Source: Fibrisoma montanum (GTDB lineage Bacteria; Bacteroidota; Bacteroidia; Cytophagales; Spirosomataceae). Taken from it: DNA of 64,000 bases. How positions within the stretch are numbered: the stretch's first letter is position 1; each line of letters starts with the position of its first letter. Shown piece after piece: positions 23,139 through 40,507 of the stretch. The DNA lies in the NCBI RefSeq assembly GCF_003583365.1, contig NZ_QXED01000018.1:24883-88882 (forward strand), written 5' to 3'. The translations under genes were made by a program, and so were the position numbers. The notes under the pieces were generated by a model. That model was not told the origin of the DNA. It made no database searches and was given only the letters and a program-made list of their open reading frames with translations.

Positions 23139-24119
23139 TTAGCCAGATAACTCATCGTCGGGGCCTTCTTCCTTACGCAACCGCTCCTCGATTTCCTCGA
23201 TAGATGGTAGTGTGCTTTTGAGATTGTCGGGTAGGGACTCCATTAACCGATACTCGGTGATACCAATTGGTTTGTGAAAATCCCGTAACGCATATTCGGC
23301 AATCAACTTGTCGTGTCGGCGGCAGATAAGCAGGCCGATAGTCGGATTGTCGAACTCACCCCGAAGCTGATCGTCCACCGCCGACAGATAGAAGTTCAAT
23401 TTACCGACGAATTCTGGCTCGAACTCGACCACTTTCAGGTCGATGACTAAGTAGGAGCGCAGTTTGAGGTGATAGAACAACAAGTCGATGGCAAATTCCC
23501 GATCTGAAACTTCGATTGGGTATTGCCGACCAACGAAAGAAAATCCTTTGCCAAGTTCCAGTAGAAAACTCGTGATGTGGTTGACCAATCCTTCCTCCAG
23601 ATCGCGTTCCTTGTATTTTTCAGTCAAGGTGAGAAAATCGAACAGGTACGGGTTTTTCAGCGATTGTTGCGCCAGATCTGACAGCGGTTCGGGCAGGGTG
23701 CGGTCAAAGTTTGTAATTGCTTTCCGCGACCGTTGCCGGTAGCCTGACTCAATTTGCTGTACCATCACGTCCCTCGACCAGCCGTTTTCGACGGTTGCCT
23801 GTATGTAAAATTGCCGTTCTGCGGGGTCTTTTACCTTGTCCAGTAAGGTGAGGTGATGATACCAAGTCAATTTTGCAAGCGGCACTTGCAAAATTGGCTT
23901 TTCACCAAACGGATCGTCAGGATAGGCAGCCGCGAACGATTTCATATACCGCAGATTCCGGGGCGACATACCCTTCATGTTCGGAAATTCTGCTTTGAGA
24001 TCGGCTACTAAGCGGACGACGACCTTCTGCCCCCACCCCTGCTGTTTTTCCTGCTCCAGTATGATTTTACCGATTCGCCAGTACAGGGCATAACCAAACA
24101 AAAAGGGTAAATCTTTCAC
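23139..24119 (-). pseudogene. DUF1016/YhcG-like PDDEXK nuclease, 5'-truncated by insertion
   Basis: Remaining C-terminal 312 codons of a DUF1016 (YhcG-type) nuclease. From LYWRIGKIILEQEKQQGWG onward the sequence is intact. It includes the catalytic PD-(D/E)xK region (FAIDLLFYHLKL, then VIDLKV) and GKLNFYLSAVDDQL. The first residues (GTG start, KDLPFLFGYA) do not belong to the family; they are encoded by the terminal inverted repeat of the 16.3-kb element that split the gene. The missing 42 N-terminal codons lie at 40376-40507. Reconnecting both ends through one copy of the direct repeat restores a continuous 354-codon gene. The fragment may still be translated from the repeat-derived start. 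Confidence 0.85.
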
Positions 24120-24123
24120 TTGT
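24086..24123 (+). repeat. Left terminal inverted repeat of the 16.3-kb element
   Basis: 38 bases beginning GGGCATAACC; pairs with 40346-40383 with mismatches only at positions 23 and 28. On the minus strand it provides the GTG start and first ten codons of the truncated nuclease fragment. Confidence 0.85.
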
Positions 24124-24610
24124 GCCCAATAATCAAAAATGGCACACTTAATTCATCACCATAGCAAATAAAACGAATGTTATAGAGCGCTATTTCGTCT
24201 CACAAACTCAGCTAAAATGAGAGATTTTTGGTTTGATTAGTGATATGACATTTTGAGACTTAATCTAGTATGGATTGTCTTGGCCAAGACAATCAAACTC
24301 CATGTCTCTTTAAATGGGCGTTTAAAGAGACACATAGAGATTAATTGATCTGTTAAAAGACTATCAAATTTTTAGTTTTGTTGTAGCTGGTCGAAAAATA
24401 CTTATCGCTTCAACGCTCAGATTCAAACTGCTACGATCGGTGCACTTGGTTAGGGCTATGGAAAGTTATGGTTGGGTTTCTTTCCGTAAACAGGTAAGAT
24501 ATAGTCGAACGAGCGATTCCTATTGAATTTCACACGAATACTAAATTAATCGTAACTTTACGATGAAAACCAATTTTGTGTTTGTAAGTGATAATTTATA
24601 AGACTGTGCT
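24124..24610. other. Left-end intergenic region with palindromes and ArsR box
   Basis: No gene seen. It holds a 22-bp perfect palindrome (half-site GATTGTCTTGG, 24273-24294), a 12-bp-arm hairpin with loop TGGGCG (24303-24332), and an ArsR-type box ATCGTAACTTTACGAT at 24549-24564, 46 bases before the first arsenic gene. The palindromes resemble recombinase or regulator sites; their role is unknown. Confidence 0.55.
24549..24564. promoter_or_regulatory. ArsR operator copy 1
   Basis: Imperfect palindrome ATCGTAACTTTACGAT before the secreted ArsC-like gene. It matches the boxes before arsR (25337) and arsM (25736), which supports co-regulation by the local ArsR. Confidence 0.65.
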
Positions 24611-25318
24611 ATGAAGCTTTTCAGCCTACTTCCAATAAGCTTACTATTTATAACCGCCATTTTGTTGGGTAATGCTCCCGACAAAAAGACGGAATTGAAT
24701 GGTCCTTTAGTGACCTATATCAATGGCATCAAACAAGATTTTTCAAAAATCCCGCAAGACCGCAAAGCTGAATTGGACAAAATAGTGGAGTTTATTCAAC
24801 TCAAAGTAAACGCCAAAGAGCCTGTCCAATTAACCTACATCTGTACGCACAATTCCCGACGCAGCCATTTTGGCCAATTGTGGGCAGCCACAGCCGCTGC
24901 TTACTATGGCGTGCCCAGGGTGAAAACCTTCTCAGGCGGAACCGAAGTCAGTGCCTTTAATGAACGAGCGATTGCGGCTTGCAAACGAGCGGGATTCGAC
25001 ATTGCCAAAGTGTCGGAAGGGCCAAACCCGACCTATGCCGTCAATTACGCGTCTGGCATAGAACCCATCAAAGCATTCTCAAAAAAATACGATGACGCTA
25101 GCAATCCCCAAAGCAATTTCCTGGCGATTATGACTTGCTCACAGGCCGACAAGGCATGTCCCATCGTGAAAGGCGCAGCGGTACGGGTAGCGACGCCCTA
25201 CGACGATCCCAAAGCCTTCGATGGTACTCCCCAGGAAACCGCCAAATATGACGAGCGGTGCAAGCAAATTGCCACGGAAACTTTTTACGTTTTCTCCAAA
25301 GTGAAGGTGGCGATCTAA
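24611..25318 (+). CDS. Secreted ArsC-like (LMW-phosphatase fold) protein
   Basis: 235-residue protein with a Sec signal (LLPISLLFITAILLG) and a low-molecular-weight-phosphatase/arsenate-reductase fold. The P-loop is ICTHNSRRSHF, a CX5R motif with the nucleophilic Cys in place. The resolving cysteines expected of thioredoxin-coupled ArsC are present as CSQADKAC (CX6C), and an acidic loop (PYDDPKAFDG) follows. It therefore looks like a working arsenate reductase or phosphatase, but located outside the cytoplasm, which is unusual for ArsC. It leads the ars cluster behind an ArsR box, ahead of arsR. Its natural substrate is unproven. Confidence 0.82.
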   Translation: MKLFSLLPISLLFITAILLGNAPDKKTELNGPLVTYINGIKQDFSKIPQDRKAELDKIVEFIQLKVNAKEPVQLTYICTHNSRRSHFGQLWAATAAAYYGVPRVKTFSGGTEVSAFNERAIAACKRAGFDIAKVSEGPNPTYAVNYASGIEPIKAFSKKYDDASNPQSNFLAIMTCSQADKACPIVKGAAVRVATPYDDPKAFDGTPQETAKYDERCKQIATETFYVFSKVKVAI

Positions 25319-25330
25319 TCGACAAAAAAT

Positions 25331-25374
25331 TTATTCATCGTAATATTGCAATGAATAAAAACCTGCTACCTTTG
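25331..25374 (+). promoter_or_regulatory. arsR promoter with overlapping ArsR operator (copy 2)
   Basis: A 28-bp imperfect palindrome (TTATTCAT...ATGAATAA, core ATCGTAATATTGCAAT at 25337-25352) overlaps a Bacteroidota promoter: TTG near 25347 and TACCTTTG (TAnnTTTG) at 25367-25374. The arsR ATG follows four bases later, so the mRNA may be nearly leaderless. Bound ArsR would cover the upstream promoter element. Confidence 0.68.
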
Positions 25375-25378
25375 GGGC

Positions 25379-25705
25379 ATGGGACTGACCAAAACCGAAA
25401 TATTCACTGAAGAGCAAAACCGCATCGCGGATCTGGCGAAAGCATTTGCGCATCCTGCACGGGTGGCCATTCTGCAATTGCTGATTGCCAAGAAAGCCTG
25501 CGTTTGTGGTGATCTGGTGGACGAGCTGAATTTGGCCCAAGCGACCGTATCCCAGCATTTGAAAGAACTGAAACGCATCGGCATCATTCAGGGCGAAATC
25601 AATCCACCCCGCGTATGCTACTGCATCAATCCCCCCGTATGGGAGGAAGCCCAACGCGCATTCGGGGCCTTGTTTGACACGTTTGTGCCTGTGACCTGCT
25701 GCTAG
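25379..25705 (+). CDS. arsR: ArsR-family arsenic-responsive repressor
   Basis: Winged-helix metalloregulator of 108 residues. The DNA-recognition region reads DELNLAQATVSQHLKELKRIG, preceded by a CVC motif (KKACVCGDL) at the start of helix 3 that commonly binds As(III). A further CC pair ends the protein (VPVTCC), and another Cys lies in VCYC. It would dissociate from its boxes when arsenite binds. Operators of the same pattern precede this gene, the secreted ArsC-like gene and arsM. Confidence 0.93.
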   Translation: MGLTKTEIFTEEQNRIADLAKAFAHPARVAILQLLIAKKACVCGDLVDELNLAQATVSQHLKELKRIGIIQGEINPPRVCYCINPPVWEEAQRAFGALFDTFVPVTCC

Positions 25706-25735
25706 TCAACGGCAGGTATTTTTTTGCCTGAATCA

Positions 25736-25751
25736 ATCGTAATATTACAAT
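25736..25751. promoter_or_regulatory. ArsR operator copy 3 (before arsM)
   Basis: ATCGTAATATTACAAT, nearly identical to the box before arsR, 18 bases before the arsM start codon. It suggests that arsM and the following genes form a second ArsR-controlled unit. Confidence 0.65.
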
Positions 25752-25769
25752 ATACCAATAGGAAAGCAT

Positions 25770-26642
25770 ATGGAAACCGCCGAGCAAATCAAAGAAGTCG
25801 TGCGCCAGAAATACGGTGCGATTGCTGAACAACCGACCGACGGCCCGGCCGATGCCAATGGCTGCTGTGGCCCCACCTCTTGCTGTGGGCCTGAAACCGT
25901 CGCCAGCGTGCCCATTGATATGACCGTGGGCTATGACGAGCTGAAAGGTTACGTCGCCGAAGCCGATTTGGGATTGGGTTGCGGCTTGCCCACGCAATTC
26001 GCGCAAATCAAGCCAGGTGACACCGTGGTGGATCTGGGATCGGGCGCAGGCAATGACTGCTTTGTGGCCCGTGCCGAAACCGGCGAAACGGGCCGCGTGA
26101 TCGGCCTGGACATGACCCCGGCCATGATCGACCGTGCCCGCAAAAACACCAAGACGCTCGGATTTACCAACGTCGAGTTCGTCTATGGCGACATCGAGGA
26201 CATGCCATTGCCGAGCAATCTGGCTGACGTGGTGGTGAGCAATTGCGTGATGAACCTAGTTCCCGACAAACAAAAAGCCGTGGCCGAAACCTTCCGCATT
26301 TTAAAGCCCGGTGGTCATTTCAGCATCTCCGATATCGTGCTGAAAGGGGAGCTGCCCGCAGGCTTGCAACAGGACGCCGAACTCTATGTGGGTTGCGTCT
26401 CGGGTGCCATCCAGAAGAGCGAGTATTTGCAGCTCATCCAGGAGAACGGTTTTACCAACATCACCGTGCAGAAAGAGCGGGAAATCGCCTTGCCGGATGA
26501 TGTGCTGAAAAACTATCTGTCGGCCGACGAAATCGCCGATTACCGCCAACAGGACAAAGGTATCTACAGCGTCACGGTGTTTGCTCAAAAGCCCGAAGAA
26601 GCGGCCAAAGCGGCTTGCTGCCCTCCCGGTTGCTGCAACTAA
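25770..26642 (+). CDS. arsM: Arsenite S-adenosylmethionine methyltransferase
   Basis: Methylates As(III) to volatile or less retained methylarsenicals in the cytoplasm. It is 290 residues: an N-terminal Cys-rich segment (NGCCGPTSCCGPE), SAM motif I VVDLGSGAGNDCF, and the arsenite-binding cysteines within NCVMNL and YVGCVSGA. A Cys-rich tail (KAACCPPGCCN) is typical of ArsM. It is followed after 16 bases by the cytoplasmic arsC gene. All key residues appear present. Confidence 0.95.
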   Translation: METAEQIKEVVRQKYGAIAEQPTDGPADANGCCGPTSCCGPETVASVPIDMTVGYDELKGYVAEADLGLGCGLPTQFAQIKPGDTVVDLGSGAGNDCFVARAETGETGRVIGLDMTPAMIDRARKNTKTLGFTNVEFVYGDIEDMPLPSNLADVVVSNCVMNLVPDKQKAVAETFRILKPGGHFSISDIVLKGELPAGLQQDAELYVGCVSGAIQKSEYLQLIQENGFTNITVQKEREIALPDDVLKNYLSADEIADYRQQDKGIYSVTVFAQKPEEAAKAACCPPGCCN

Positions 26643-26658
26643 ATCCAATCAATCAGCC

Positions 26659-27099
26659 ATGAAAAAAATCCTAGTGCTTTGCACGGGCAATTCCGCCCGC
26701 TCTCAATTGGCCCAAGGTTACCTGCAATATTTTGCCGGTGATCGGGCGGAAGTTCTCAGTGCCGGAGTGAACCCCAAAGGGGTGAATCCGCTGGCCGTTC
26801 AAGTGATGGCCGAAGACGGCATCGACATTTCGCATCACACATCGAATCATGCCGACGAGTACGTGCATATTCCCTTCGATTACGTCATCACCGTTTGCGA
26901 CAATGCCCGCGAGCAATGCCCGTTTTTCCCCACAGTGGGCGAACGCATTCACCAGAGCTTTCTCGATCCTGGCCACACCGCGCCGGCGGACCGGCCAGGC
27001 GAAGACGCATTGACCTCCTTCCGCCGGGTGCGGGATCTGATCAAAACCTACAGTCAGGAATTCATCGCCAGCCGTTTGGGCGAAGCCGTCCCGCAATAA
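26659..27099 (+). CDS. arsC: Cytoplasmic arsenate reductase (thioredoxin-coupled type)
   Basis: Reduces arsenate to arsenite, the form used by ArsM and the Acr3 exporter. 146 residues from ATG MKKILVLCTGN; an open frame upstream overlaps arsM and is not used. The P-loop VLCTGNSARSQ carries the nucleophile, and VCDNAREQCPFF gives the CX6C redox pair. The following acidic loop DPGHTAP is also as in the family. Its stop touches the next start codon, so translation is probably coupled to arsN. Confidence 0.94.
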   Translation: MKKILVLCTGNSARSQLAQGYLQYFAGDRAEVLSAGVNPKGVNPLAVQVMAEDGIDISHHTSNHADEYVHIPFDYVITVCDNAREQCPFFPTVGERIHQSFLDPGHTAPADRPGEDALTSFRRVRDLIKTYSQEFIASRLGEAVPQ

Positions 27100-27540
27100 A
27101 TGATGGCCATGCAGATCGAACCCGCGCAACTGGCCGATACTGAGGCCGTCATTGCCCTGCTAGAGCAAGGGCACCTATTGACCGAGGATTTGCCAACCGG
27201 CCTTCCTGGTTTTGTCATTGCGAAATACGAGCAAACCCCCGTTGGGGTGGCTGGTCTGGAACGCTTCGGCCCGGTGGGCCTGCTGCGTTCGGTGGCGGTC
27301 GATCCGCATCACCAGGGCAAGCAGATAGCCGCCCAACTGGTCGGCCGTTTGCTGGAATCCGCCCAGGCATCCAGCCTGCAAGAAGTGTATCTCATCACTA
27401 ATACGGCCGACCACTATTTCGAGCGGCATGGTTTCCAAACCGTCAACCGCCAGGAAGTGCCTGCGGCCATCCAACAGACGCAGCAATTCAGCGAACTATG
27501 TCCGTCATCGGCCATCGTCATGAAGCGCAGCTTAAACTAA
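27100..27540 (+). CDS. arsN2: Arsenic-associated GNAT acetyltransferase (ArsN2-like)
   Basis: N-acetyltransferase of 146 residues with the GNAT acetyl-CoA site (LLRSVAVDPHHQGKQIAAQLV) and a C-terminal LCPSSAIVMKRS that is characteristic of ArsN2-type proteins. ArsN1 proteins acetylate organoarsenical antibiotics; the substrate of ArsN2 proteins is not firmly established. The gene begins directly at the arsC stop. Start could also be nine bases downstream (MQIEPAQ). Confidence 0.85.
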   Translation: MMAMQIEPAQLADTEAVIALLEQGHLLTEDLPTGLPGFVIAKYEQTPVGVAGLERFGPVGLLRSVAVDPHHQGKQIAAQLVGRLLESAQASSLQEVYLITNTADHYFERHGFQTVNRQEVPAAIQQTQQFSELCPSSAIVMKRSLN

Positions 27541-27547
27541 ATCCGCC

Positions 27548-28282
27548 ATGAAATGCACATTGATTGCCCTTCTTCTTCTCGGTGGCATTGGCCTGTTGGC
27601 CTTCCGTCTGCCTTTGAATTCCAGGCCCCAAGCCAAGCTTTACCCCGCTTTGGCGGAGTACCTGAAGAGTGCCAAAAAGGATCTGGAAACGATACCCGCG
27701 TCACGGCGTGCCGAGCTGGATAAAATTGCGCTGTTCATTCAGAACAAACGCATCATGGATAAGAATGCGAACCTGCTTTTCGTGAGTGGGGACAATGCCC
27801 GCCGTAGCCTGCTGGCCCAGGTATGGGCGCAGGTTGCCGCCGATTATTTGGGCGTCGAAAACGTACATGCATTTTCGGGTGGCAACATCGCTTCCACGGT
27901 TGCCCCGACGATTCAAAAAACACTGGAAAAAATTGGTTTCCAGGTCAACCCGGTGACCTTGAGCGGGCAACCAGCTTATGAATTGCGATTCGATGAAAAG
28001 CAGCCTGCTTTGACGCTGTTCTCGAAAGTCTATACCGACCAGGCCAACCCCAAAAATAACTTCGGGCTGATTCTCACCTGCGATCATACGGAATGCCCTG
28101 GCCCGGATGGGCCAACCGACCGCATCGCCAAATCCACGGTGCAAGGCCCCGCTTTTAAAATCACCCTGCCCTACACGCCCCCACGCACGGCGGAAGGGCA
28201 AGCCAACGAAGCCGCTGTCTATGATGCCCTGAACCGGCAGATAGCCACCGAAATGCTGTATTTGTTTAGCAACGTTCATTAA
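27548..28282 (+). CDS. Secreted ArsC-like protein lacking the catalytic cysteine
   Basis: 244-residue exported paralogue of the ArsC-like protein at the start of the cluster: signal peptide (LIALLLLGGIGLLAFRL), same fold and length, shared DKIALFIQNK and NNFGLILTC regions. At the P-loop the sequence reads LLFVSGDNARRSLL, so Ser replaces the nucleophilic Cys while the Arg is kept. The later redox pair is altered to CDHTEC (CX4C instead of CX6C). It cannot use the normal ArsC chemistry and may bind arsenate or phosphate, or act as a partner of the active paralogue; this is inference. Confidence 0.8.
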   Translation: MKCTLIALLLLGGIGLLAFRLPLNSRPQAKLYPALAEYLKSAKKDLETIPASRRAELDKIALFIQNKRIMDKNANLLFVSGDNARRSLLAQVWAQVAADYLGVENVHAFSGGNIASTVAPTIQKTLEKIGFQVNPVTLSGQPAYELRFDEKQPALTLFSKVYTDQANPKNNFGLILTCDHTECPGPDGPTDRIAKSTVQGPAFKITLPYTPPRTAEGQANEAAVYDALNRQIATEMLYLFSNVH

Positions 28283-28293
28283 CCCACGGAGCC

Positions 28294-28320
28294 AGGTCGG
28301 TGCATAGCCGACCTTTTTTT
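28294..28320 (+). terminator. Intrinsic terminator/attenuator before acr3
   Basis: Stem AGGTCGG / CCGACCT with a seven-base loop followed by TTTTTTT, immediately before the acr3 start. As the exporter gene has the same orientation, the hairpin probably sets lower or separate expression of the downstream genes. Confidence 0.7.
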
Positions 28321-28322
28321 AT

Positions 28323-29411
28323 ATGAATCCAACTATTGTTCCCCCAGTTAACCGGCCAAAGCTTTCCTTTCTGGATAGCTACCTGACGCTGTGGATTTTC
28401 CTGGCCATGCTGATCGGTGTGGGCATCGGGTATTTCTTCCCGCAGTCGCAGAGCTTCATCAACCAATTCAATTCGGGATCGACCAATGTGCCTCTCGCCG
28501 TTGGCCTGGTGCTAATGATGTATCCACCTTTGGCAAAGGTGCGTTATGACGAGCTGCCCAAGGTATTTGCCAACACCAAAATATTGGGCCTTTCACTCGT
28601 ACAAAACTGGATCGTCGGCCCTTTGCTCATGTTCGGTCTAGCGGTCATTTTCCTACCCGACAAGCCCGAATACATGACCGGCCTTATCATGATCGGCATT
28701 GCCCGATGCATTGCGATGGTGATTGTCTGGAACGACCTGGCGGGCGGTGATGGGCTGTACGCGGCTGGGCTGGTTGCCTTCAACAGCATTTTCCAAGTGC
28801 TGTTCTATTCGGTCTATGCCTGGCTGTTCATCACGGTGCTACCGCCCCTGTTCGGACTGCACGGATACGAGGTGAATATCACCATCGGCGAAGTGGCCAA
28901 AAGCGTGTTCATTTATTTGGGTGTACCCTTCCTGGCAGGCATGTTTTCGCGGATCATTCTCACCCGTTTGAAAAGCCTTCACTGGTACGAGCAGACGTTT
29001 TTGCCTGCCATCAGTCCCATCACCCTTATCGCACTTCTGTTTACGATCGTGGTCATGTTCAGCCTGAAAGGCCAACTGATCGTGTCCATTCCGCTCGATG
29101 TGCTGCGCATCGCCATTCCCCTGACGATCTATTTTGCCATCATGTTCTTTTCGGCCTTCTATCTCTCGAAGCGAGCCGGTGCGGATTACGCGAAATCTAC
29201 CTCGCTCGCTTTCACCGCAGCCGGGAATAATTTCGAGCTGGGCATTGCCGTTGCCATCGCCGTTTTTGGCATCAATTCGGGTGCTGCCTTTGCCGCTGTG
29301 GTGGGGCCACTGATCGAAGTGCCGGTGCTAATTCTGATGGTCAATTTTGCCCTGAAACAACAACACAAATTCGATCTCCACTACAAAAAGACGTTTCAAA
29401 AACACGCATGA
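28323..29411 (+). CDS. acr3: Acr3-type arsenite efflux transporter
   Basis: Inner-membrane exporter of As(OH)3, 362 residues and about ten helices ([17 protein letters not shown] first). The conserved cysteine of Acr3 proteins is seen in [17 protein letters not shown], and a second signature lies at [20 protein letters not shown]. Acr3 is the energy-dependent exit route for the arsenite produced by ArsC. A four-base overlap (ATGA) couples it to the phosphoesterase gene. Confidence 0.95.
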
Positions 29412-30208
29412 AAATTGCCCTGTTTTCCGACATTCACGCCAACTTGCCCGCACTGGAAGCGGTGTTGGCCGACATTGACAGCCGCCAGCCTGACGCGGTG
29501 TATTGTTTAGGTGATCTGGTCGGCTACAACATTTGGCCGAACGAAGTCATCGCCACCATTCGCCAACGTGGGATTCCCACCATCGCCGGGAATTACGATT
29601 ACGGCATCGGCCGCAGCAGTGACGATTGCGGATGTGCCTACCGTGAAGAAGACGAAAAGGCGATGGGCAAAGTCTCTATTGCCTACACCAACAAAACCGT
29701 GGGTGATTCTGAACGGCAGTATCTACGCACCTTGCCGACCCATATTCGGGTCGAATTCGAGTTGGGCAACGATCCGGCCCACCTCTGGCAACAACAAACC
29801 CCGGTGACTTTGTTGCTGGTACATGGAAGCCCCCGACGCGTGAATGAATATCTGTTCGAGGATCGGGGCGACCGGAGTTTGGGGCGTGTGCTGGAAGGAG
29901 CCAGTGCCGACATTCTATGCTTCGGACATACGCACAAACCCTTTCACAAAGTGGTCAGTGCCGAAGCTACAGGCGCAGAAACTTATTGGCGTCATGCCAT
30001 CAATATCGGATCGGTAGGCAAGCCAAAGGACGGCGACCCCCGCGCCTGCTATGTCATCCTGACGATTGACGAAACCGCCCGCCCTGGTTCAGCGGATGGA
30101 GTTCAAGTGGAATTCGTGCGGGTTGCCTACGATGTGGAGAAAGCCGCCCGTGCGGTCGAGGAAAGTGAATTGCCCGATCCTTACGCGGACATGCTGCGCC
30201 GTGGTTAA
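29408..30208 (+). CDS. Calcineurin-like metallophosphoesterase of the ars operon
   Basis: Soluble 266-residue phosphoesterase with the metal-site motifs FSDIHAN, GDLVGY, GNYDYG, LVHGSPR and FGHTHKPF, an intact di-metal centre apart from Tyr in place of His in GN(H/Y)D. Metallophosphoesterase genes are repeatedly linked to ars operons, but the substrate is not known. It is translationally coupled to acr3 and is the last ars gene; the IS begins 13 bases beyond its stop. Confidence 0.85.
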
Positions 30209-30220
30209 TTACCCGAAAAT

Positions 30221-31530
30221 ACATGAGTCATCCCGAAGTTTGGGTGATGGTTTGGTAAGTAGTTAGTAGAGCCGCCAAGGCGGCTCGTAGTCGATAAAGC
30301 GGTGTCAGTGCAGACTGGCACCGCTTTCCGGTTCGATGGCACCAACTTCGTAGCAAAGCCAGGCGATAAGCATGCTGGTCGATCACCAGCAAGGACAGCA
30401 GGAAGGCATACACCAGAGCCACCATCATCATCAGCTTGAGCCGGTTTTCCCAGAACCAGAGCCGGGGCGACTGAAGGGCCAGTTCACTCTTGGAAAAGCG
30501 CCAGCAGGCCTCAATCTGCCACCGACGTGCGTAGGCCAGCACAACTGACCATACTACATCCGCCTGATCACAGGCTTGATTGGTCAGCAGATACCAAGGC
30601 TCCCGGCCCTTGCCCAGTCGGGAGACGACTAGCCACAAGGCTTGGTCGGGGTAGTCAGCATGAGTAACGGCCAGCGCCAGCGCTGAGCCTTGCCGCCACT
30701 GCTGTTGATGGGCATCCCACACCCGGCGACGAACCTGTGTGGCCCGCCCCCGGGCGATCTGCCAGGCCGCCCGCCGACCCTTTTCGTCGACTAACTGATA
30801 GCGTTTGGGCCAGCGGAGGACAAAGCCCACCCGCTGGGTAAGTAACTCCCCCAGCCAGCGTTTACCGGCATAGCCCCGGTCGAATACATGCCAGAGTTGC
30901 CTGCCAAAAGCAGTTATGGACTGCATTAACAAGGCCGACTGTAGACTGAAGCGGTCCTGAGCGTACTCACCCCGGGTGGTATACCAGCGAAAGAAAGCAA
31001 TCATGGGATGGGTCTTCAAGCCCGCCAGTAACAGCCCCATCCACTCGAAGCCGGGTACGTGCACGGGGCGTCCGCCGGGTGGATTGAAAAACCCCGGCTT
31101 GAGCCGCTTGAGCCGTTTGGCTTTGCTACTACGGACGGCACATAGCCCTTGGGCTTTAAGACTTTCAGGCTTTTCAAGCACACTTTCATCCCAGAGTATG
31201 ATACAGGTCTGTTGCTGATCCTGGAGTTGTTGGGCCCGTTGCTGAGCCTTTTCCAGCAGGAAGGTCTCGATCAGGGTGTGCTCCCAGGTCTTGGATCTGA
31301 GCAGGTTACTGATTCGTTTGGTGCCCGCCGGGGCGTGTTGTTCACCGAGCAGTTTTCCTCCTAACTCGCTCAGCAACAACCCCATACTGTTATGGCGAAA
31401 GCGCATCAGGCAACCTAGTAGCCCCCAAAAGATGTTGACCAGTCGTCGGTCTGCCTGCTGATCAAGCCGATCCAGTAGGGGTTGGACAAAATCGGGTAGT
31501 TTTGCCGTTTCGTACAAAATCCGTCACTTG
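30221..31530 (-). mobile_element. IS4-type insertion sequence
   Basis: Element with one transposase gene. The ends are inferred from sequence shared with a short inverted derivative at 31743-31958: a 37-base upstream end (31494-31530, minus strand begins CAAGTGACGGATTTTG) and a 22-base downstream end (30221-30242, ACATGAGTCATCCCG). The two ends resemble each other only weakly (5 of the first 8 terminal bases). No clear target duplication was found. Confidence 0.65.
30228..31517 (-). CDS. IS4-family DDE transposase
   Basis: 429-residue transposase. The RNase-H-like catalytic core is visible: first Asp in IILWDESVLEKPES, second in WHVFDRGYAGKRWL, and the Y-(2)-R-(3)-E signature in YARRWQIEACWRFSKSEL that holds the catalytic Glu and defines the IS4 family. 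It looks full-length. The stop codon lies in the downstream end of the IS. This is the only recognised transposase in the 16.3-kb resistance segment and appears unrelated to that segment's ends. Confidence 0.9.
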   Translation of the reverse strand: MYETAKLPDFVQPLLDRLDQQADRRLVNIFWGLLGCLMRFRHNSMGLLLSELGGKLLGEQHAPAGTKRISNLLRSKTWEHTLIETFLLEKAQQRAQQLQDQQQTCIILWDESVLEKPESLKAQGLCAVRSSKAKRLKRLKPGFFNPPGGRPVHVPGFEWMGLLLAGLKTHPMIAFFRWYTTRGEYAQDRFSLQSALLMQSITAFGRQLWHVFDRGYAGKRWLGELLTQRVGFVLRWPKRYQLVDEKGRRAAWQIARGRATQVRRRVWDAHQQQWRQGSALALAVTHADYPDQALWLVVSRLGKGREPWYLLTNQACDQADVVWSVVLAYARRWQIEACWRFSKSELALQSPRLWFWENRLKLMMMVALVYAFLLSLLVIDQHAYRLALLRSWCHRTGKRCQSALTPLYRLRAALAALLTTYQTITQTSG

Positions 31531-31742
31531 GACGGCCTTAACTATACAACATATTGATTGTCAACTAATTTAGGTAAGAAAGTCGGTTTCATAAAACAAA
31601 ATTCAAAATGGTTAATGAACCTACTTTTTGGCCCTATTTTTTGGCTTAATCCGAATAGTCAAGTTGCTAATTAACTGTGGTTCAGAAAGGTGTGACTTTT
31701 TGAACCTTGACTTTTAAAAGCCGTTTAGTCAATCAAATCAGT

Positions 31743-31958
31743 CAAGTGACGGATTTTGTACGAAACGGCAAAACTACCCAAAATCATGGAGCAGGTCATA
31801 AAAATAGCCTGCCTGTTGCTTGACATCGTCGGAGGTAGGTCCGACTTTTACAGCGTCTTTGGACATAAGAAAACCTTCCGGTTAGTAGTTCGCACCACTA
31901 AACTCGGAAGGTTTTTGCTTTTAAGCCAGCTCCCATCAAACTCCGGGATGACTCATGT
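31743..31958 (+). mobile_element. Short non-autonomous derivative of the IS (MITE-like)
   Basis: 216 bases carrying the same 37-base upstream end (perfect) and the same downstream end (21 of 22 bases) as the neighbouring IS, in inverse orientation, around an unrelated core of about 150 bases. The first eight transposase codons are kept (MYETAKLP), after which the frame leads into foreign sequence. Such end-only copies can be moved by the transposase of a full element. Confidence 0.68.
31871..31914. terminator. Terminator-like hairpin in the IS derivative
   Basis: Ten-bp stem AAACCTTCCG / CGGAAGGTTT with an inner TTAGT / ACTAA pairing, followed by a T-run on the plus strand. It may insulate the downstream metal genes from read-through. 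Confidence 0.6.
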
Positions 31959-33254: not shown

Positions 33255-33255
33255 G

Positions 33256-33679: not shown

Positions 33680-33704
33680 TCCAGGGCAATAACGATCATA
33701 AGCT

Positions 33705-34295
33705 ATGAAACTCGCCGGATTGACCGGGCTACTCACTGCCTTTGTTTCTTCTCTCTGTTGTACCGTCCCTTTGCTCACTTTGCTGGTGGGTGCCACTGGA
33801 TCGGCTGGTGGATGGGCCTGGTTGGAACCTTTGCGGCCTTACAGTATCGCGCTCACGGTGGGCGCGTTGGGTTGGGCCTGGTACGAACAACTAAAACCCC
33901 AAAAAACGATGGCATGTCATTGCGAAACGAAGAAAACCGCCTTTTGGCAAACCAAAACCTTTTTGGGGGTAGTAACAGGTATGGCATTGCTGCTGCTGGC
34001 TTTCCCGTCCTACTCGAACTTCCTATATCAGGATAAGAATCAAGCGACCGTGCAGCCCGCGCAGGCAGGCCCGCAACAAGTGGCGTATGTGACCATCAAG
34101 GGCATGTCCTGCGAAGGTTGTGAGCATCACATCAAGCAGGAAGTTACCAAGATCAAGGGAGTTTCGGCGGTGGATGTGTCGTACCAGAAAGGCGCGGCAA
34201 CCGTGAAATACGACAGCAAAAAAACTTCCCTCGCCGACATCAAAAAAGCGGTGGATGCCACTGGCTACAAAGTCACCAGCACCAAAACGCTCTAA
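33705..34295 (+). CDS. merTP: MerTP: fused mercuric transporter and binding domain
   Basis: 196-residue fusion of a MerT-like membrane part and a MerP-like HMA domain. Residues 1-110 hold three helices with the Cys pair FVSSLCCTVPLL in the first and a cytoplasmic loop CHCETKK. Residues 125-196 are an HMA domain with GMSCEGCEHH. In known mer systems such proteins pass Hg(II) inward to the reductase MerA, but no merA is present in this window, so the metal and direction are uncertain. Confidence 0.88.
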   Translation: MKLAGLTGLLTAFVSSLCCTVPLLTLLVGATGSAGGWAWLEPLRPYSIALTVGALGWAWYEQLKPQKTMACHCETKKTAFWQTKTFLGVVTGMALLLLAFPSYSNFLYQDKNQATVQPAQAGPQQVAYVTIKGMSCEGCEHHIKQEVTKIKGVSAVDVSYQKGAATVKYDSKKTSLADIKKAVDATGYKVTSTKTL

Positions 34296-34298
34296 GGC

Positions 34299-34508: not shown

Positions 34509-34541
34509 ATGAGAAAACCCGCGAAAGCGGGTTTTCTCATT
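34508..34541. terminator. Terminator after GDCCVxC gene
   Basis: Fifteen-bp perfect stem (AATGAGAAAACCCGC / GCGGGTTTTCTCATT) with a GAAA loop, overlapping the stop codon. It is a strong end for the mer-like operon. Confidence 0.8.
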
Positions 34542-34545
34542 CCTC

Positions 34546-34585
34546 AAGTGTTCAACTATAAACGGGCGTTTATAGTTGAACACTT
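34546..34585. repeat. 17-bp-arm hairpin with CGGGCG loop
   Basis: Perfect arms AAGTGTTCAACTATAAA and complement around CGGGCG. The loop and adjoining AAA/TTT match the hairpin at 24303-24332 (loop TGGGCG) near the left end of the element, although the stems differ. Function unknown. Confidence 0.6.
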
Positions 34586-34606
34586 CTTTTAAAGGATATT
34601 GACCTT

Positions 34607-34777
34607 GTCTCAAGAAAGGCTCGTGGCTGTTGCACAACTCACTAAAAGTCGGAAATGCCGTTCAAACAGTGGACTTCATGGACTTAATGATAAAGTTTTC
34701 AAGGCTTTAGCTGTGCTTATTAGCCATCGAAGTCAGCGGTTTGAGAGTTGTGCAACAGCCACGCTCCTCCTTGAGAC
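34607..34777. mobile_element. MITE-like element
   Basis: 171-base structure with perfect 19-base inner arms (CGTGGCTGTTGCACAACTC at 34622-34640 and complement at 34745-34763) and outer arms GTCTCAAG / CTTGAGAC. No credible coding sequence. Size and terminal symmetry fit a miniature inverted-repeat transposable element; the parent family was not identified. The rest of the gap up to the P-type ATPase gene shows nothing. Confidence 0.6.
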
Positions 34778-34920
34778 GAGGAAATGTTCATGAATCGGCT
34801 CCCGCATGAGACGAAGAAGTATTCAAATATCTACTCATTAATTCGGGCATTTTAAGCGATGGACATTCAATAAATCAAATACCTACTTAAAGCCGCAGGC
34901 GAATATGCTTGACCTGATGC

Positions 34921-36903
34921 TTAGAATTTCATGTTTTGAATTCGTACAGCGTTTAAAATAGCTAACATGGCTACACCCACATCGGCAAACACGGCTTCCC
35001 ACATAGTTGCTAGCCCACCAGCGCCTAGCAGGAGCACAATGGCTTTGACAACCATTGACAAGGTGATGTTTTGCCAGACAATCCGGCGGGTAGCCCGGCC
35101 AATCTCGACTGCCGTGGCGATTTTGGCCGGTTCGTCGTTCTGAATTATCACGTCGGCAGTTTCGATGGTGGCATCCGAGCCGAGTCCGCCCATCGCCATT
35201 CCGACATCGGCCAGCGCGACCACCGGCGCGTCGTTCACACCATCACCGACAAAAGCTAACTTTGCTTTTGGGTTAGTGCCTTGTTCACCTTTTAACCGCT
35301 CGACCTCACGAACCTTGTCTTCAGGTAACAAATCGCCGTGCCATTCGTCTACGCCTACCTGTTTGGCGACGGCTTCCACAACTGCCGCTTTATCGCCCGA
35401 CAGCATCACAGTGCGAATTCCATCGGCTTTCAGGCGTTTGACGGCATCAGTGGCATCGGCTTTTACTTCGTCGGCGATTGTGAAATAGCCCGCAAACGTT
35501 CCATTTATTGCCGTCATGACGATTGTAAACGGAATTTGTGTGAGGGCTTCATTAAATGATACATTAAATTTGCGAAGTAGTTTAGCATTACCGGCTAATA
35601 CCTCTTTCCCTTCGACGGTTCCTTTCAGTCCATGTCCGGAAATTTCCTCTACGTTTTCAACGGTCGCGGTTTCGTACCCTTTTCCAGCATAGTCAATGAT
35701 GGCAGTGGCAACCGGGTGGGTCGATTTGCTTTCCAGCGCGGCTGTTAACCGGGCCAGTTCTGCTGCGTCCATGCCAACGGGTTTGACTTCCTGAACCTTA
35801 AAAACGCCTTTAGTTAGCGTACCCGTCTTATCTATGACGACGGTTTTGACTTGTGTCATCAAGTCCAGAAACACAGAACCTTTGAACAGAATACCCTGCT
35901 TTGATCCGGCACCAATACCGCCGAAGTAACCCAGTGGAATAGAGATCACCAGCGCACACGGACAACCGATGACCAAAAAGACCAAACCCCGATACAACCA
36001 GTCGCGGAATTGATAGTCGGCGACGAAGAAATACGGTACAATGGTAACTAGTAAAGCCAGTGCACAGATAGCTGGGGTATAGACTTTGGCGAAGCGGGCA
36101 ATAAACTCCTGGGTCTGCGCTTTCCGGCCTGTGGCCTGTTGCACCAGCTTCAGAATCCGAGACAGCTTTGAATCCTGATAGGGCGTAGTCACATCCATCT
36201 CGACTAATGACTGCCGGTTAATCATACCTGCCAGTACCGCTTCGCCTTTCTCAATGGTGCGGGGCACGCTTTCCCCCGTCAGGGCTGCCGTATCGAACGT
36301 ACCTGAGGGAGAACGCATGGTGCCATCTAGCCCTACTTTTTCGCCTGCTTTGATCTGAATCACATCGCCAACGGCCACTGTTGCGGCTTTTACGGTTTGC
36401 GCCTGCCCGTTTTTGAGTACCGTCACCTCGTCGGGACGTACATCCAGCAGGGCTTTGATACTGCGACGTGCCCGCAGTACGGCGGCATCCTGAAACAACT
36501 CGCCGATGGTATAAAACAGCATGACAGCCACGCCTTCAGGATATTCGCGGATACCAAACGCGCCGAGCGTGGCCACGCCCATCAGGAAAAATTCGGTAAA
36601 TACATCACCGTTCAGAATGCTACTCCAAGCCCGTTTTAGCACCGGCCAGCCAACGGGCAGGTAGGCCGCCACGTACCAGATAAGCCGGATAGGATCTTTA
36701 AACCAGCTTAATTTGACAGAATCCAGCGCAATGCCGCCCAGCAACAGTACCAGACTGATAGCAGCCGGGGCGTAGGTACGCCAGGTTTGTTCAGGGCCTT
36801 TTTTAGTCGGAGCTGCGTCGGCTGCGGGCGTGGTGCCTTTCTCGATCAGTTCCACATCATCATGGTTGTGACCGTCTTCGTCGTGGGTATGATCGTGTGC
36901 CAT
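34921..36903 (-). CDS. P-type heavy-metal ATPase (Zn/Cd/Pb/Co type)
   Basis: ATP-driven exporter of soft divalent cations, about 660 residues from ATG MAHDHTHDEDG; the frame upstream of this is not used. The N-terminus is a His/Asp-rich metal-binding tail instead of an HMA domain. All core motifs are present: ALTGESVPRT (actuator), IGCPCALVISIP (transport site), DKTGTLTKG (phosphorylation), KSTHPVA and GDGVNDAPVVALAD. The CPC site with a His-rich tail suits Zn, Cd or Co. It follows the cation-exporter-like gene by seven bases. Confidence 0.93.
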   Translation of the reverse strand: MAHDHTHDEDGHNHDDVELIEKGTTPAADAAPTKKGPEQTWRTYAPAAISLVLLLGGIALDSVKLSWFKDPIRLIWYVAAYLPVGWPVLKRAWSSILNGDVFTEFFLMGVATLGAFGIREYPEGVAVMLFYTIGELFQDAAVLRARRSIKALLDVRPDEVTVLKNGQAQTVKAATVAVGDVIQIKAGEKVGLDGTMRSPSGTFDTAALTGESVPRTIEKGEAVLAGMINRQSLVEMDVTTPYQDSKLSRILKLVQQATGRKAQTQEFIARFAKVYTPAICALALLVTIVPYFFVADYQFRDWLYRGLVFLVIGCPCALVISIPLGYFGGIGAGSKQGILFKGSVFLDLMTQVKTVVIDKTGTLTKGVFKVQEVKPVGMDAAELARLTAALESKSTHPVATAIIDYAGKGYETATVENVEEISGHGLKGTVEGKEVLAGNAKLLRKFNVSFNEALTQIPFTIVMTAINGTFAGYFTIADEVKADATDAVKRLKADGIRTVMLSGDKAAVVEAVAKQVGVDEWHGDLLPEDKVREVERLKGEQGTNPKAKLAFVGDGVNDAPVVALADVGMAMGGLGSDATIETADVIIQNDEPAKIATAVEIGRATRRIVWQNITLSMVVKAIVLLLGAGGLATMWEAVFADVGVAMLAILNAVRIQNMKF

Positions 36904-36910
36904 AGTATGT

Positions 36911-37537
36911 TTAGAATTCAATAAAAAAGTTAAGTACTGCCAGCCCAAAAAGCGTCAGACCGGTAATCAGGTTTTCGTTATGTTCAAACCAATGTGGGTT
37001 AATCTGTTGTAAACTCCGTCGTCCTAGGGTCACCATCAGAAGCATCCCCGTTAAGGTAACCACGTTATAGATCAGCGCGACCAACAAGACTACCTCCCAG
37101 CCTTTTGCTCCCGCACTAAGAAAATAGGCTTCAATTTCCAGACAGGGCGATAGAAACATGGCTAGCCCCAGCGACAAAAGCAGTGCTGAAAATGAACGTG
37201 CCTTGCGTACCAATCCGGCGTCGATGTGGTCATGTACATGACGATGGCGCAGATGTTGCATCAAATACCATACACCCAACGCGAGCAGGAGCAAAGGAAT
37301 GGCCTTTTCCGAAAGGTCGTGGTAATTCTCCGCCAACTGCCATCCCGCCAAACTTACCAATACGCCCAGCAGCGTTGTGCTGACGGTATGCGCCAGTCCC
37401 GCAATAGCCGTTATGATCAACGTTTGCTGAAGACTCCACCGTTCCGTTTGGCCGATGGTTACAAATGGAAGCCAATGGCTGGGAATCAATGCATGAAGCA
37501 GGCTAAGCGTCAAACTGCCCATAACAAGTGCTTCCAT
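36911..37537 (-). CDS. Six-helix cation-exporter-like membrane protein
   Basis: 208-residue membrane protein with about six helices and a His-rich cytoplasmic loop (HLRHRHVHDHIDAG) between helices 3 and 4. The first helix carries LLHALIPSHWLP and the fourth AMFLSPCLEIEAYFL, reminiscent of the NiCoT/RcnA/UreH-like transporters. Together with the P-type ATPase and the TonB receptor it suggests a module for transition-metal movement. Assignment to a named family is tentative. Confidence 0.72.
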   Translation of the reverse strand: MEALVMGSLTLSLLHALIPSHWLPFVTIGQTERWSLQQTLIITAIAGLAHTVSTTLLGVLVSLAGWQLAENYHDLSEKAIPLLLLALGVWYLMQHLRHRHVHDHIDAGLVRKARSFSALLLSLGLAMFLSPCLEIEAYFLSAGAKGWEVVLLVALIYNVVTLTGMLLMVTLGRRSLQQINPHWFEHNENLITGLTLFGLAVLNFFIEF

Positions 37538-37551
37538 GATTAGATTGAGCT

Positions 37552-39759
37552 TTAATGGAGAAATAATTTAAGCCCACCATTGGCCACGAATCCTTCTAAA
37601 GGGGCCCATACCTCCCGGAAGGAAGGTCGGTTGAGGGGAGGGAGAATGACAGCCTGGTAACGATCCTGACGGATATCAAGCATGTTTTCAAAGTTGACAA
37701 ACACGCTAAAGTGCTTCCATCGGCGTTCACCCATGAGGCCCATCAGCCAGTAAGAACGCGAAGTCTCCCCGGTCGAAAGCGGTTTGGGACCAATGTAGTA
37801 GGCTTCCAGGCCTAACCGAAATTTACCTTCCAATTCGTACACCGCAACCAGATTCACCCGGTGTTTGGCCGTTAGCGGAATGGCACTATTAAATTCGGCC
37901 CCGCTGTAACGTCTACGCGTATCCACCAAACTATAGCCAGCATAAAGCTTAAAGGCTTCATAGCTCAGGCGCAGATTGGTTTCCAGCCCCCGACTGTCGA
38001 TTGGCCCGTTGGCGTTGGTGAATTGATACCCGGCCGTACTTGGTCCAGGTGTAATAATGGCCGGAATATCCAGCACTAGGGCATGATTCAGCTTGGTATA
38101 AAAGAAAAGCTGATTGATCGACACATCGATGATATCGAACAAGGTCGTGCGATAATTTACATCAAAATTACCCCCAATGGACGTTTCTGCCTGAGCAGTA
38201 GCTTGATCAATCGGGCGTACGTTGCGAAAGGCGACGCTTTCGGCATCTTCGGTAAAGATGGTCGGTGCTTTATAACCCAACCCCCCACCAAGCCGGGAGG
38301 TCAAACGGTCGGACAGTTTGAACAGGGCTGACACCCTTGGCAGCGCAAAGAAGCCGAATCGGTTATGATAGTCTCCCCGCAATCCCGTTTCTAATGTAAG
38401 CCAGGGACGCACCGTGTAATCATTTTGGGCGAAGGCTCCCATCGTCACGTATTGGTAATTGCGTCCCAGGCTGGATGCCCCCTGCCCGGCCCCATCTTCG
38501 GTAAACTGTTCGGTCCAGAGATTGCCCCCTCCGATCCATTCCGCCCGCGTACCGGTATGGGTGTAACTGGCTTCCGTGAAGCTGGCCACCTGGTGACCGG
38601 CAAAGCGATAATCGGGTTGCGAAATAACCCGGTTGAAGTAACTCACGCTGTTTTTTAGCGTCAGAATAGAACGCTCAAAACGCTTATCGAATTGGAGCTG
38701 TGAGGCCAGCCGATCCGAACGGTTACGCTCGAAATATTGATGGGTGTTATCGGTTCGGCCATCAAGCACTTGCATATCTCCGCCGATGCGGTTTTCCCAA
38801 TTACCCATTGCCCCCACCGTCAGCGTAGCCGTAGGATTGAGGTAGACGTAAAGCCGGGGATTGACCGTATAGCGCTCGTAGTTAGGCAAAGCGGAAAATC
38901 CGGTTTTGCCGGGATCGTACTCGCGTTGGGTGTTGCGGGCCGTGAACATGGTTACGCCAATCTTTTCCCACTTCTGACCCCAAAAACCGCTCAGGTCGAG
39001 GCCCCGCGCCGTGGTGCCATTGAGCATAAAACTAAGCTCCCGTTCGGCGGTTGGTCGTTTGGTAATCAGGTTGACCAGGCCCGCAATGGCCCCGCCCCCG
39101 TAGAGCGTCGATGCCGAGCCTTTGATGACTTCGACCTGCCGCAGATTTAGCGGAGGAATTTGTAAAATGCTCAAGCCAGCGGCAAAGCCAGAATAGAGTG
39201 GCAAACCATCCTGTAAAATCTGGGTGTACCGCCCATCCAAGCCCTGAATGCGAATGTTCGCGTTCGCTGATACGGGCGAAGTTTGCTGTACCTGAATGCC
39301 AGTGCTTTCGTTGAGCTGCATCCGAATGTCACCCGGTCGCATATTAGCCTTTTCTTCCAGTTCTTCGCCGGTAATGGCTTCGATCCGGGTGGGAATGTCA
39401 TTAATGCTGCGATTGCTGCGCGTCGAAGTCACCACCACTTCTTCGAGTTCTTCCCCTTCGACTTGCCGGAGTTTCACGACCAGGGAATCATTACCGGGAA
39501 GCGTCAGGCTATCGGTTTGGCTTTCATAGCCGACAAAGGAACAGGTGAGCGCATAGCGCCCCGCTGTTGGGACGGCCAGCACCAGCCGCCCGGAGGTATC
39601 CGCAGCGGCCCCGATCCGGCCAGGATTTAGCAGGGCGGTTGCCCCGATCAAGGGTTTGTGGGTTTCGGCATCCTGAATCAAAACGCGCAGGGAGCTTTGC
39701 CCCCAGGCTATGGGTATTGTGGAGAGTGTCAACCAGAGTGACACAATGAGCGATTTCAT
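37552..39759 (-). CDS. TonB-dependent outer-membrane receptor
   Basis: 735-residue receptor with a signal peptide (LTLSTIPIAWGQ), a carboxypeptidase-regulatory-like domain (about 24-95), a probable TonB box EEVVVTSTR, a plug domain (115-225, with GLDGRYTQILQDGLPLYSG and GSASTLYGGGAIAGLVNLIT) and the beta-barrel to the C-terminus. The substrate is unknown; association with metal efflux genes suggests a metal or metallophore. It starts the leftward unit that continues with the membrane protein and the P-type ATPase. Confidence 0.93.
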   Translation of the reverse strand: MKSLIVSLWLTLSTIPIAWGQSSLRVLIQDAETHKPLIGATALLNPGRIGAAADTSGRLVLAVPTAGRYALTCSFVGYESQTDSLTLPGNDSLVVKLRQVEGEELEEVVVTSTRSNRSINDIPTRIEAITGEELEEKANMRPGDIRMQLNESTGIQVQQTSPVSANANIRIQGLDGRYTQILQDGLPLYSGFAAGLSILQIPPLNLRQVEVIKGSASTLYGGGAIAGLVNLITKRPTAERELSFMLNGTTARGLDLSGFWGQKWEKIGVTMFTARNTQREYDPGKTGFSALPNYERYTVNPRLYVYLNPTATLTVGAMGNWENRIGGDMQVLDGRTDNTHQYFERNRSDRLASQLQFDKRFERSILTLKNSVSYFNRVISQPDYRFAGHQVASFTEASYTHTGTRAEWIGGGNLWTEQFTEDGAGQGASSLGRNYQYVTMGAFAQNDYTVRPWLTLETGLRGDYHNRFGFFALPRVSALFKLSDRLTSRLGGGLGYKAPTIFTEDAESVAFRNVRPIDQATAQAETSIGGNFDVNYRTTLFDIIDVSINQLFFYTKLNHALVLDIPAIITPGPSTAGYQFTNANGPIDSRGLETNLRLSYEAFKLYAGYSLVDTRRRYSGAEFNSAIPLTAKHRVNLVAVYELEGKFRLGLEAYYIGPKPLSTGETSRSYWLMGLMGERRWKHFSVFVNFENMLDIRQDRYQAVILPPLNRPSFREVWAPLEGFVANGGLKLFLH

Positions 39760-39831
39760 GAAAGAGATGTTTTTTAGTTAGCAATAGTCGCCCGGCCAGT
39801 CAGAGGCCGACCAGAACGAACAAAAAGAGAG

Positions 39832-40140
39832 CTAACCCAAACGGGGAGGTTGCCAGATCCGCCCCGGTACATCGAGCGTATGCGGAGCCTGGTAAGAAGT
39901 CAGCACTGCCAGAATGAAGGGTGAAACGGCCATGATTGCACCGATTAATTGCGGAGCTTGCGGCAGGGTGCAGCCTGGACAGGTAGCACAGAGGCAGAAG
40001 GGCGAACAACCGGCATCATGGCGATGATCGTCTGCGGGTAAAGTTTGTTCAGTGGTGGGCTCATCGGAGCAAAAAGCTTCGCAGGGTAGCCCTGAAAGCA
40101 CCAGCACATATATTGCCCATATAATCCGCCACAATTTCAA
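39832..40140 (-). CDS. DUF6660 family small envelope protein
   Basis: About 102 residues, start taken at TTG (KLWRIIWAIYVLVLSGLPCEAFC). The open frame extends 37 codons further upstream, but that part crosses a perfect 22-bp-arm inverted repeat and is not protein-like. After the signal come DDHRHDAGCSPFCLCATCPGC, a His/Cys motif typical of the family, and a C-terminal hydrophobic segment. Genes of this family often precede TonB receptors of metal clusters, as here; function unknown. Confidence 0.7.
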   Translation of the reverse strand: MKLWRIIWAIYVLVLSGLPCEAFCSDEPTTEQTLPADDHRHDAGCSPFCLCATCPGCTLPQAPQLIGAIMAVSPFILAVLTSYQAPHTLDVPGRIWQPPRLG

Positions 40141-40175
40141 GGCGCAAAGATACGAACGATAGCCGGAAAGGAACA

Positions 40176-40221
40176 GTCTTTTGTTCACATGTATACGCTC
40201 GTATACATGTGAACAAAAGAC
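40176..40221. promoter_or_regulatory. 22-bp-arm inverted repeat upstream of DUF6660 gene
   Basis: Two perfect 22-base arms (beginning GTCTTTTGTTCACATGTATA) separated by two bases, 36 bases before the TTG start. The location fits an operator for the DUF6660-TonB-ATPase unit; it also lies 125 bases from the right end of the 16.3-kb element. Confidence 0.6.
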
Positions 40222-40345
40222 GAGATTACGCTTTCTTAAGCAAGTAACCATCTACTTACTTATTCTCAAATTACGCTCGTTTGTATAAACTATTTAAAGA
40301 CAACGCGTCCAAGCTAATTAAGTAGTCGATTCTTGTTTTTTAGGT

Positions 40346-40383
40346 ACAAGTGAAAAATTTGCCCTTTTTGTTTGGTTATGCCC
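40346..40383 (-). repeat. Right terminal inverted repeat of the 16.3-kb element
   Basis: Complement begins GGGCATAACC; 36 of 38 bases match the left end. The direct repeat CCAGTACAGG overlaps its outer edge. Read on the minus strand it puts a stop codon (GCA TAA) directly after the interrupted nuclease fragment. Confidence 0.85.
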
Positions 40384-40507
40384 AGTACAGGCCCAGAAAT
40401 TCGGCGTTGGCTGCTATAGTTGCCCGTAGTTGGGTTGTACGAATCTCGCTTTTCAGCTTTTCAAGTAGCTCGATGTAATCGCCTGGCTGGTTTGTGGCTG
40501 GAAGCAT
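40376..40507 (-). pseudogene. 5' fragment of the interrupted DUF1016/YhcG-like gene
   Basis: Encodes MLPATNQPGDYIELLEKLKS and on to AEFLGLYWA, then a stop contributed by the terminal repeat. The first 42 residues are the N-terminal start of a DUF1016 protein and join in frame to LYWRIGKIILEQ at 24080. Too short to act alone. It marks the right-hand insertion junction. Confidence 0.85.

Follow-up and report, generated by a model that had tools for sequence, protein, structure and literature searches.

How can a block of predicted arsenic and heavy-metal resistance genes more than 16 kb long move as a unit when no transposase of the type suggested by its ends lies within it? The question is raised by a locus of Fibrisoma montanum (Bacteroidota; Spirosomataceae; assembly GCF_003583365.1, 7.79 Mb in 39 contigs). 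The window, that is, the whole 64,000-nucleotide stretch analysed here, comprises bases 24,883 to 88,882 of the 88,882-base contig NZ_QXED01000018.1, and inside it a 16.3-kb element (window positions 24086-40383, 16,298 bp) interrupts a gene of the DUF1016 nuclease family. This element is probably a large non-autonomous Tn3-type transposon that was moved in trans by a Tn3-family transposase (TnpA), a movement that we infer from its anatomy.

Borders, ends and the interrupted gene

The element begins with GGG, closes with CCC and is flanked on either side by AGTACA. Its ends, GGGCATAACC...TCACTTGT, are 38-bp inverted repeats identical at 36/38 positions, as an earlier note on this DNA had counted; the limits given there (24078..40391) included flank bases and have been corrected. 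The inverted arms were also found by an unbiased repeat search (77 nt including flank, 83%), and their similarity extends past the 38 bp, with 21/30 matches in the next 30 bp (letter-shuffle p = 3e-5) and only 8/42 at arm positions 69-110. When the flanks are joined with a single AGTACA, an open DUF1016 gene of 354 codons is restored, again as the earlier note had held, and the rejoined 354-aa protein shows 44% identity to a DUF1016 homologue that is intact and encoded on a different contig of this genome (L040; L, G and C labels denote our loci, genomes and contigs), the alignment crossing the junction at residue ~40 without a gap. The features of the border are as follows.

23139..24085, reverse strand: 3' part of the interrupted DUF1016/YhcG_C nuclease-family gene (Pfam PF06250, PF17761; empty-site join)
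24080..24085, no strand: left copy of the target-site duplication AGTACA (6-bp length from related transposons)
24086..24123, forward strand: left 38-bp terminal inverted repeat (36/38 versus right end; Tn3-family-like)
40346..40383, reverse strand: right 38-bp terminal inverted repeat (36/38 versus left end; Tn3-family-like)
40384..40389, no strand: right copy of the target-site duplication AGTACA (flank comparison)
40390..40507, reverse strand: 5' part of the interrupted DUF1016 gene, its first ~39 codons (empty-site join)

In three places (L040:7602-9592, L231:10829-11830 and the window at 23139-24085), a DUF1016/PDDEXK nuclease gene adjoins or lies close to a Tn3-type end or a resolvase.

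Likeness to the ends of Tn3-family transposons

Flank symmetry alone is compatible with a duplication of 6, 8 or 10 bp, a restriction already drawn in the earlier note, and the reading frame by itself would tolerate shifts by multiples of three bases. The choice among these lengths was made by comparison with 28 regions around Tn3-type tnpA genes, 20 from genomes of the host family, 7 from plasmids, plus L042. A pair of ends around tnpA, for which agreement at at least 32 of 38 positions was required, was present in 15 regions and absent from 13, and a duplication could be tested in 14 of the 15 pairs, that of L092 being left out as it lies at contig ends. A symmetric 6-bp duplication stands outside the GGG/GGC ends of eight (L042, L082, L083, L088, L095, L229, L231, L233); L094 has one of 6 bp after a one-base shift of its ends, L087 has one of 5 bp, and the remaining four (L084, L097, L230, L234) have none. 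Since 8/14 carry the symmetric 6-bp form, as does the 286-bp miniature element lodged in the window element, the comparison favours reading AGTACA as a 6-bp duplication, which together with the GGG ends falls within the 5 or 6 bp of the Tn3 family.

The ends themselves, inverted repeats of ~38 bp beginning with GGG, were scored against the complete set of 30 ends that the 15 Tn3 transposons provide, alongside 2000 dinucleotide shuffles. The score summed over the 30 ends beats the shuffles (p 0.0005 left, 0.001 right), also when the leading GGG is kept (p 0.001 for both ends). Taken individually, 11/30 Tn3 ends are matched by the left end and 12/30 by the right end at p <= 0.01, namely ends of L042, L092, L095 and L229-L231, plus the right end of L084, and the best-scoring one, the right end of L042, agrees with the two window ends at 24/38 and 26/38 positions. 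In genome G229, an end 93% identical over 42 bp to the window's right end lies beside a broken tnpA, a relic covering residues 372-971, whose 3' part faces and reads toward that end; intact tnpA genes likewise read toward the outer end in L042 (about 70 bp away) and L229 (41 bp away). Among the matches listed, the plasmid TnpAs nearest to the relic are those of Hymenobacter (52-53%), whose transposon ends, GGGTGTTGTTAAACAAATAGGGTAAA..., share AAACAAAnAGGGTAAA with the left end of the window element at corresponding positions. The element's ends are thus best read as ends of the Tn3 family.

Cargo, internal elements and the search for a transposase

No gene of an autonomous Tn3 transposon was detected in the element, with no similarity to tnpA (DDE_Tnp_Tn3) between its ends and no credible resolvase match on the contig. 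Nine tblastn queries (six TnpAs, two serine resolvases and one TnpA relic fragment), run over the full length of the contig, gave no match with an E-value below 0.66. In the rest of the genome, a Pfam search found one Tn3 DDE domain, on contig C28, in a tnpA broken into two overlapping pieces that correspond to residues 1-506 and 604-1027 of L042. In L042, from a sister species, tnpA is intact (1049 aa); its own ends share only 21-26/38 bases with the window ends, and a weaker window-type end lies about 310 bp outside its right end, facing it. The relic fragment of G229 has TnpA relatives in 36 of 222 family genomes, the best outside G229 being 46% identical over most of the fragment, and no relative in viral contigs.

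The cargo was named in the earlier note as ars, mer-like, P-type ATPase and TonB receptor genes, and Pfam or NCBIfam models support the ars cluster, MerTP, the heavy-metal P-type ATPase and the TonB receptor. The content of the element is as follows.

24086..24196, no strand: left arm without homology to L137
24611..25318, forward strand: weakly ArsC-like protein, below every curated cut-off
25379..25705, forward strand: ArsR/SmtB-type metalloregulator (NF033788 above cut-off)
25770..26642, forward strand: arsenite methyltransferase ArsM (NF008823 above cut-off)
26659..27099, forward strand: putative ArsC-type arsenate reductase, from an inner ATG of the open reading frame (ORF) listed from 26581
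27100..27540, forward strand: ArsN2 acetyltransferase (NF040501 above cut-off)
28323..29411, forward strand: ACR3 arsenite efflux transporter (TIGR00832 above cut-off)
29408..30208, forward strand: metallophosphoesterase (PF12850)
30221..31958, reverse strand: IS4-like insertion sequence (IS) with its own 22-bp ends ACATGAGTCATCCC (ORF 30228-31517)
31494..31779, no strand: 286-bp TIME-like miniature element within the IS4-like element (perfect 37-bp inverted repeat, AAAATC duplication)
32859-33254: MerR-family regulator (PF13411)
33296-33679: ArsR-family regulator (PF01022)
33705..34295, forward strand: MerTP mercuric transport protein (NF033556 above cut-off)
34921..36948, reverse strand: heavy-metal P-type ATPase (TIGR01525 above cut-off)
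37552..39759, reverse strand: TonB-dependent receptor (PF07715, PF00593)
40154..40383, no strand: right arm without homology to L139

In two homologous Spirosoma plasmids, the names attached to the region that matches 26659..27099 include 'arsenate reductase ArsC'. Two perfect palindromes, at 40176-40221 (22-bp arms) and 34546-34585 (19-bp arms), are terminator-like or recombination-site-like.

Spirosoma sp. 48-14 (L137) has the ars part at 94% identity, with homology that begins at 24197 and excludes the terminal 111 bp; in Spirosoma telluris (L139) the homology to the element stops at 40153. The order of the modules in both is unlike that of the element, and no window-type end (<=11 mismatches) occurs in the 62 loci searched. 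Directly inside the short arms (~111 and ~230 bp) there appear to lie resistance modules that are also present in places lacking these ends, because the homology to L137 and L139 starts or stops at the arms and the ends are not found there.

The transposase that the earlier note had taken for the only one, of IS4 type and with differing ends of its own, is IS4-like and does have different ends, although it scores below the NCBIfam cut-offs (best 47 bits against 152) and just below that of Pfam (22.9 against 23 bits). Movement of the whole element by this IS has been rejected, given that the ends ACATGAGTCATCCC differ from those of the element and no target duplication is seen flanking 30221-31958. 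In both L137 and L139 the homology breaks off at 30186-30189, beside the IS4-like element, which, as it also lacks a duplication, may mark a recombination joint. The 286-bp unit interrupts the IS4-like element, and this copy of the IS is therefore damaged. The unit lies within the 50-500 bp of TIMEs, the miniature elements derived from Tn3 transposons, and has no transposase, Tn3-type ends near those of the Tn3 transposon L083, a 6-bp duplication and related copies; by this anatomy, read from its sequence, it is a TIME. It is present once in its own genome; 26/222 family genomes hold DNA resembling it, in many cases no more than the ends, and its three best checked relatives (L267, L268, L269) measure 297, 287 and 285 bp, with exact 6-bp duplications in two of the three. 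TIME-like elements of ~290 bp form a family in Spirosoma-group genomes. Because a Tn3-type unit with a 6-bp duplication of its own lies inside the element, Tn3-type insertion in trans is likely to have already occurred on this replicon.

Proposed movement in trans and its alternatives

The ends, the borders, the duplication, the interrupted gene and a contig on which no Tn3 gene was detected are what the proposed mechanism has to join. A Tn3-family TnpA supplied in trans would have bound both 38-bp ends, and the whole 16.3 kb would have been copied into the DUF1016 gene, giving the 6-bp AGTACA duplication; the cointegrate would then have been resolved by a resolvase or by recombination from outside the element. 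Replicative transposition of this kind is typical of the Tn3 family; the family of the acting transposase, its action in trans and the outside resolution are the parts that we infer. The earlier note had offered mobilisation in trans or loss of the transposase, and the failure of the nine queries to find a TnpA or resolvase remnant on the contig leans toward the former. An autonomous Tn3-family ancestor that shed its tnpA/tnpR core, through deletion or replacement, once it had moved for the last time is a possible but unlikely origin of the element: the ends are of Tn3 type and the similar end in G229 still lies beside a decaying tnpA, but no remnant of TnpA or resolvase was found in the 16.3 kb, and the ~111- and ~230-bp arms abut cargo that, in the stretches examined, also occurs elsewhere without these ends.

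Among known systems, PMC4133298 and PMC13367494 describe TIMEs and TIME-COMPs with 38-bp Tn3 ends, 5- or 6-bp duplications and a transposase acting in trans. The non-autonomous Tn3 elements in PMC4133298 (262 to 3,892 bp) are like the window element in their 38-bp Tn3-type ends, lack of a transposase and 5- or 6-bp duplication and, as far as its own movement can be deduced, in being moved by a Tn3 TnpA in trans, whereas the window element is larger, at 16.3 kb. With the TIME-COMPs, tabulated up to 11,421 bp in the relevant table of PMC13367494, it would share a non-autonomous state, resistance cargo between Tn3-type ends and a core without a transposase gene; they carry a whole TIME at each end, whereas the window element has a single arm there and no inner repeat. 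This difference bears on the reading in which two inverted miniature Tn3 elements carried the DNA between them. TIMEs and TIME-COMPs of up to 11.4 kb are known (PMC13367494), a TIME-like unit lies inside, and the similarity of the arms extends past 38 bp; however, a complete TIME at each end requires an inner copy of the end, and no other site in the window exceeds 2.9 bits against 52-53 for the ends. Such an origin is therefore improbable, and in its strict form it is largely refuted, the inner copies being missing and each end being a single arm, save for the case that both of these copies have decayed.

The autonomous Tn3 transposons of Spirosomataceae and Hymenobacter (L042, L082, L083, L229) likewise have 38-bp GGG ends and a 6-bp duplication, and, unlike the window element, autonomous relatives hold a TnpA of ~1,030 aa inside their ends, with a recombinase-family gene in L229-L231 and L233. 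Mobile insertion cassettes carry cargo between IS-type ends and are moved in trans. The analogy with them in the earlier note stands as to movement in trans and fails as to the ends, which are Tn3-like around a much larger cargo, so that the Tn3-derived TIME group is the better analogue. The element appears to resemble TIMEs and TIME-COMPs, and to be new in its single arms, larger size and Bacteroidota host. A full-text search found no paper linking Tn3, Spirosoma and transposon, and a broader one including Bacteroidetes, Bacteroidota and Hymenobacter gave, by title and among the matches listed, none on TIME-type mobilisation there. If the proposed reading holds, a Tn3 transposase encoded elsewhere can move a transposase-free block of more than 16 kb in one piece, against 11.4 kb for the largest TIME-COMP listed in the relevant table of PMC13367494, and TIME-type mobilisation would be extended to Bacteroidota; such blocks would be easily overlooked by annotation, because nothing within them resembles a Tn3 transposon.

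Several observations weigh against movement by a Tn3 transposase in trans. At p <= 0.01, 18-19/30 Tn3 ends are unmatched, including all ends of L082, L083, L087, L088, L094, L097, L233 and L234. A tnpA within 3 kb inside a window-type end is found only in G229, as a relic, and in G001, where it is the intact L042 with different ends of its own; an intact cognate transposase was not identified in the 222 family genomes, and the tnpA of the element's own genome is broken. The earlier note's suggestion that a transposase be sought between such ends led to a relic beside one of them and to no intact gene directly between two of them. Of the 20 places with E < 1e-6, no two lie in facing orientation on a shared contig and no more than 20 kb apart, except the pair in the window. 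Partners were searched with a position-weight matrix (window, 14 loci, L040-L043) and by 6-bp duplication plus similarity (18 oriented ends), over the ~2.5 to 18 kb of sequence lying inward of each end; none was found for the other 16 ends, the best candidates reaching 14-19/38, and the window pair stands alone at 36/38. The end is mostly unpaired in relatives, so it is possibly a dispersed repeat.

An origin of the ends in a different DDE transposase family, with the enzyme not nearby and the Tn3 likeness convergent, would fit the failure to identify an intact TnpA directly between such ends and a likeness to the scoring Tn3 ends of 20-26/38 bases, but is hard to reconcile with the tnpA relic beside the 93% end, the common 6-bp duplication length and the shuffle controls, and we regard it as quite improbable.

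The unpaired copies were surveyed by a DNA search with the end, which found 24 places in 17/222 family genomes (E <= 0.01, some matching other parts of the query), and by an end model, which found 56 places in 35/222, many of them weak. An exact 27-base end pattern had 0 matches in genome contigs and a 30-base pattern 0 in viral contigs; against the plasmid collection, one Spirosoma record has 27-29 matched bases and the rest are at chance level. Three unpaired copies (L123, L126, L130) are accompanied by further pieces of 51-104 bp (70-86%) shared with the initial 250 bp of the left arm in the window, and drift has lowered the score of the same site to 26 bits on a Fibrella plasmid, compared with 52 bits in L132. 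We read the unpaired copies as old or partial Tn3 ends, the alternatives being one-ended insertion, deletion or a different repeat. It could further be imagined, though we hold it rather doubtful, that Spirosoma-group genomes are a reservoir of loose single Tn3-type ends, two of which, inverted around plasmid DNA, make an instant transposon movable by a passing Tn3 transposase, the 16.3-kb element being one such product. The weakest alternative, a dispersed structured repeat at the ends of a segment that arrived by recombination and never was a transposon, draws on the unpaired state of most Spirosoma-group copies, on the 9/12 listed ends whose nearest upstream ORF shares their strand, mostly no more than 50 bp away, and on weaker end subfamilies in which conservation extends to either side of the motif. 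This alternative is very improbable given that an exact 6-bp duplication directly adjoins each of the two ends on the outside and that the gene is restored without a gap. The earlier note had named a dispersed, unpaired repeat as grounds for rejection; this is for the most part the state in relatives, but in the window pairing, duplication and gene interruption hold.

Dispersed unpaired GGGCATAACC ends (L120-L132, L228, L261-L266) often follow closely downstream of a gene, and in some of them the middle is occupied by a hairpin-like insert. An inward-facing pair in G061:C14 (223533+/237799-, 14.3 kb apart) was not counted as the same kind of border, as these subfamilies are conserved outside the motif too. 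A structured RNA in the left arm is weakly indicated and was set aside, with no Rfam match at gathering score in the window, one below threshold (E 0.034), and folding z values of -0.49 (175 nt) and -2.23 (255 nt).

The replicon is likely a plasmid, because the window holds the following plasmid-type genes.

20295-21449: Rep3 initiator
40801-41691: ArdC
44797-46746: type IV secretion system (T4SS) coupling protein
59519-61975: TraG-type ATPase

On the same replicon, adjacent reverse-strand genes at 50175-53347 encode a short Piwi-domain protein (sub-threshold Pfam match) and a SIR2-domain protein; the two look like a short Argonaute/SIR2 defence pair, which we take to be of the SPARSA type.

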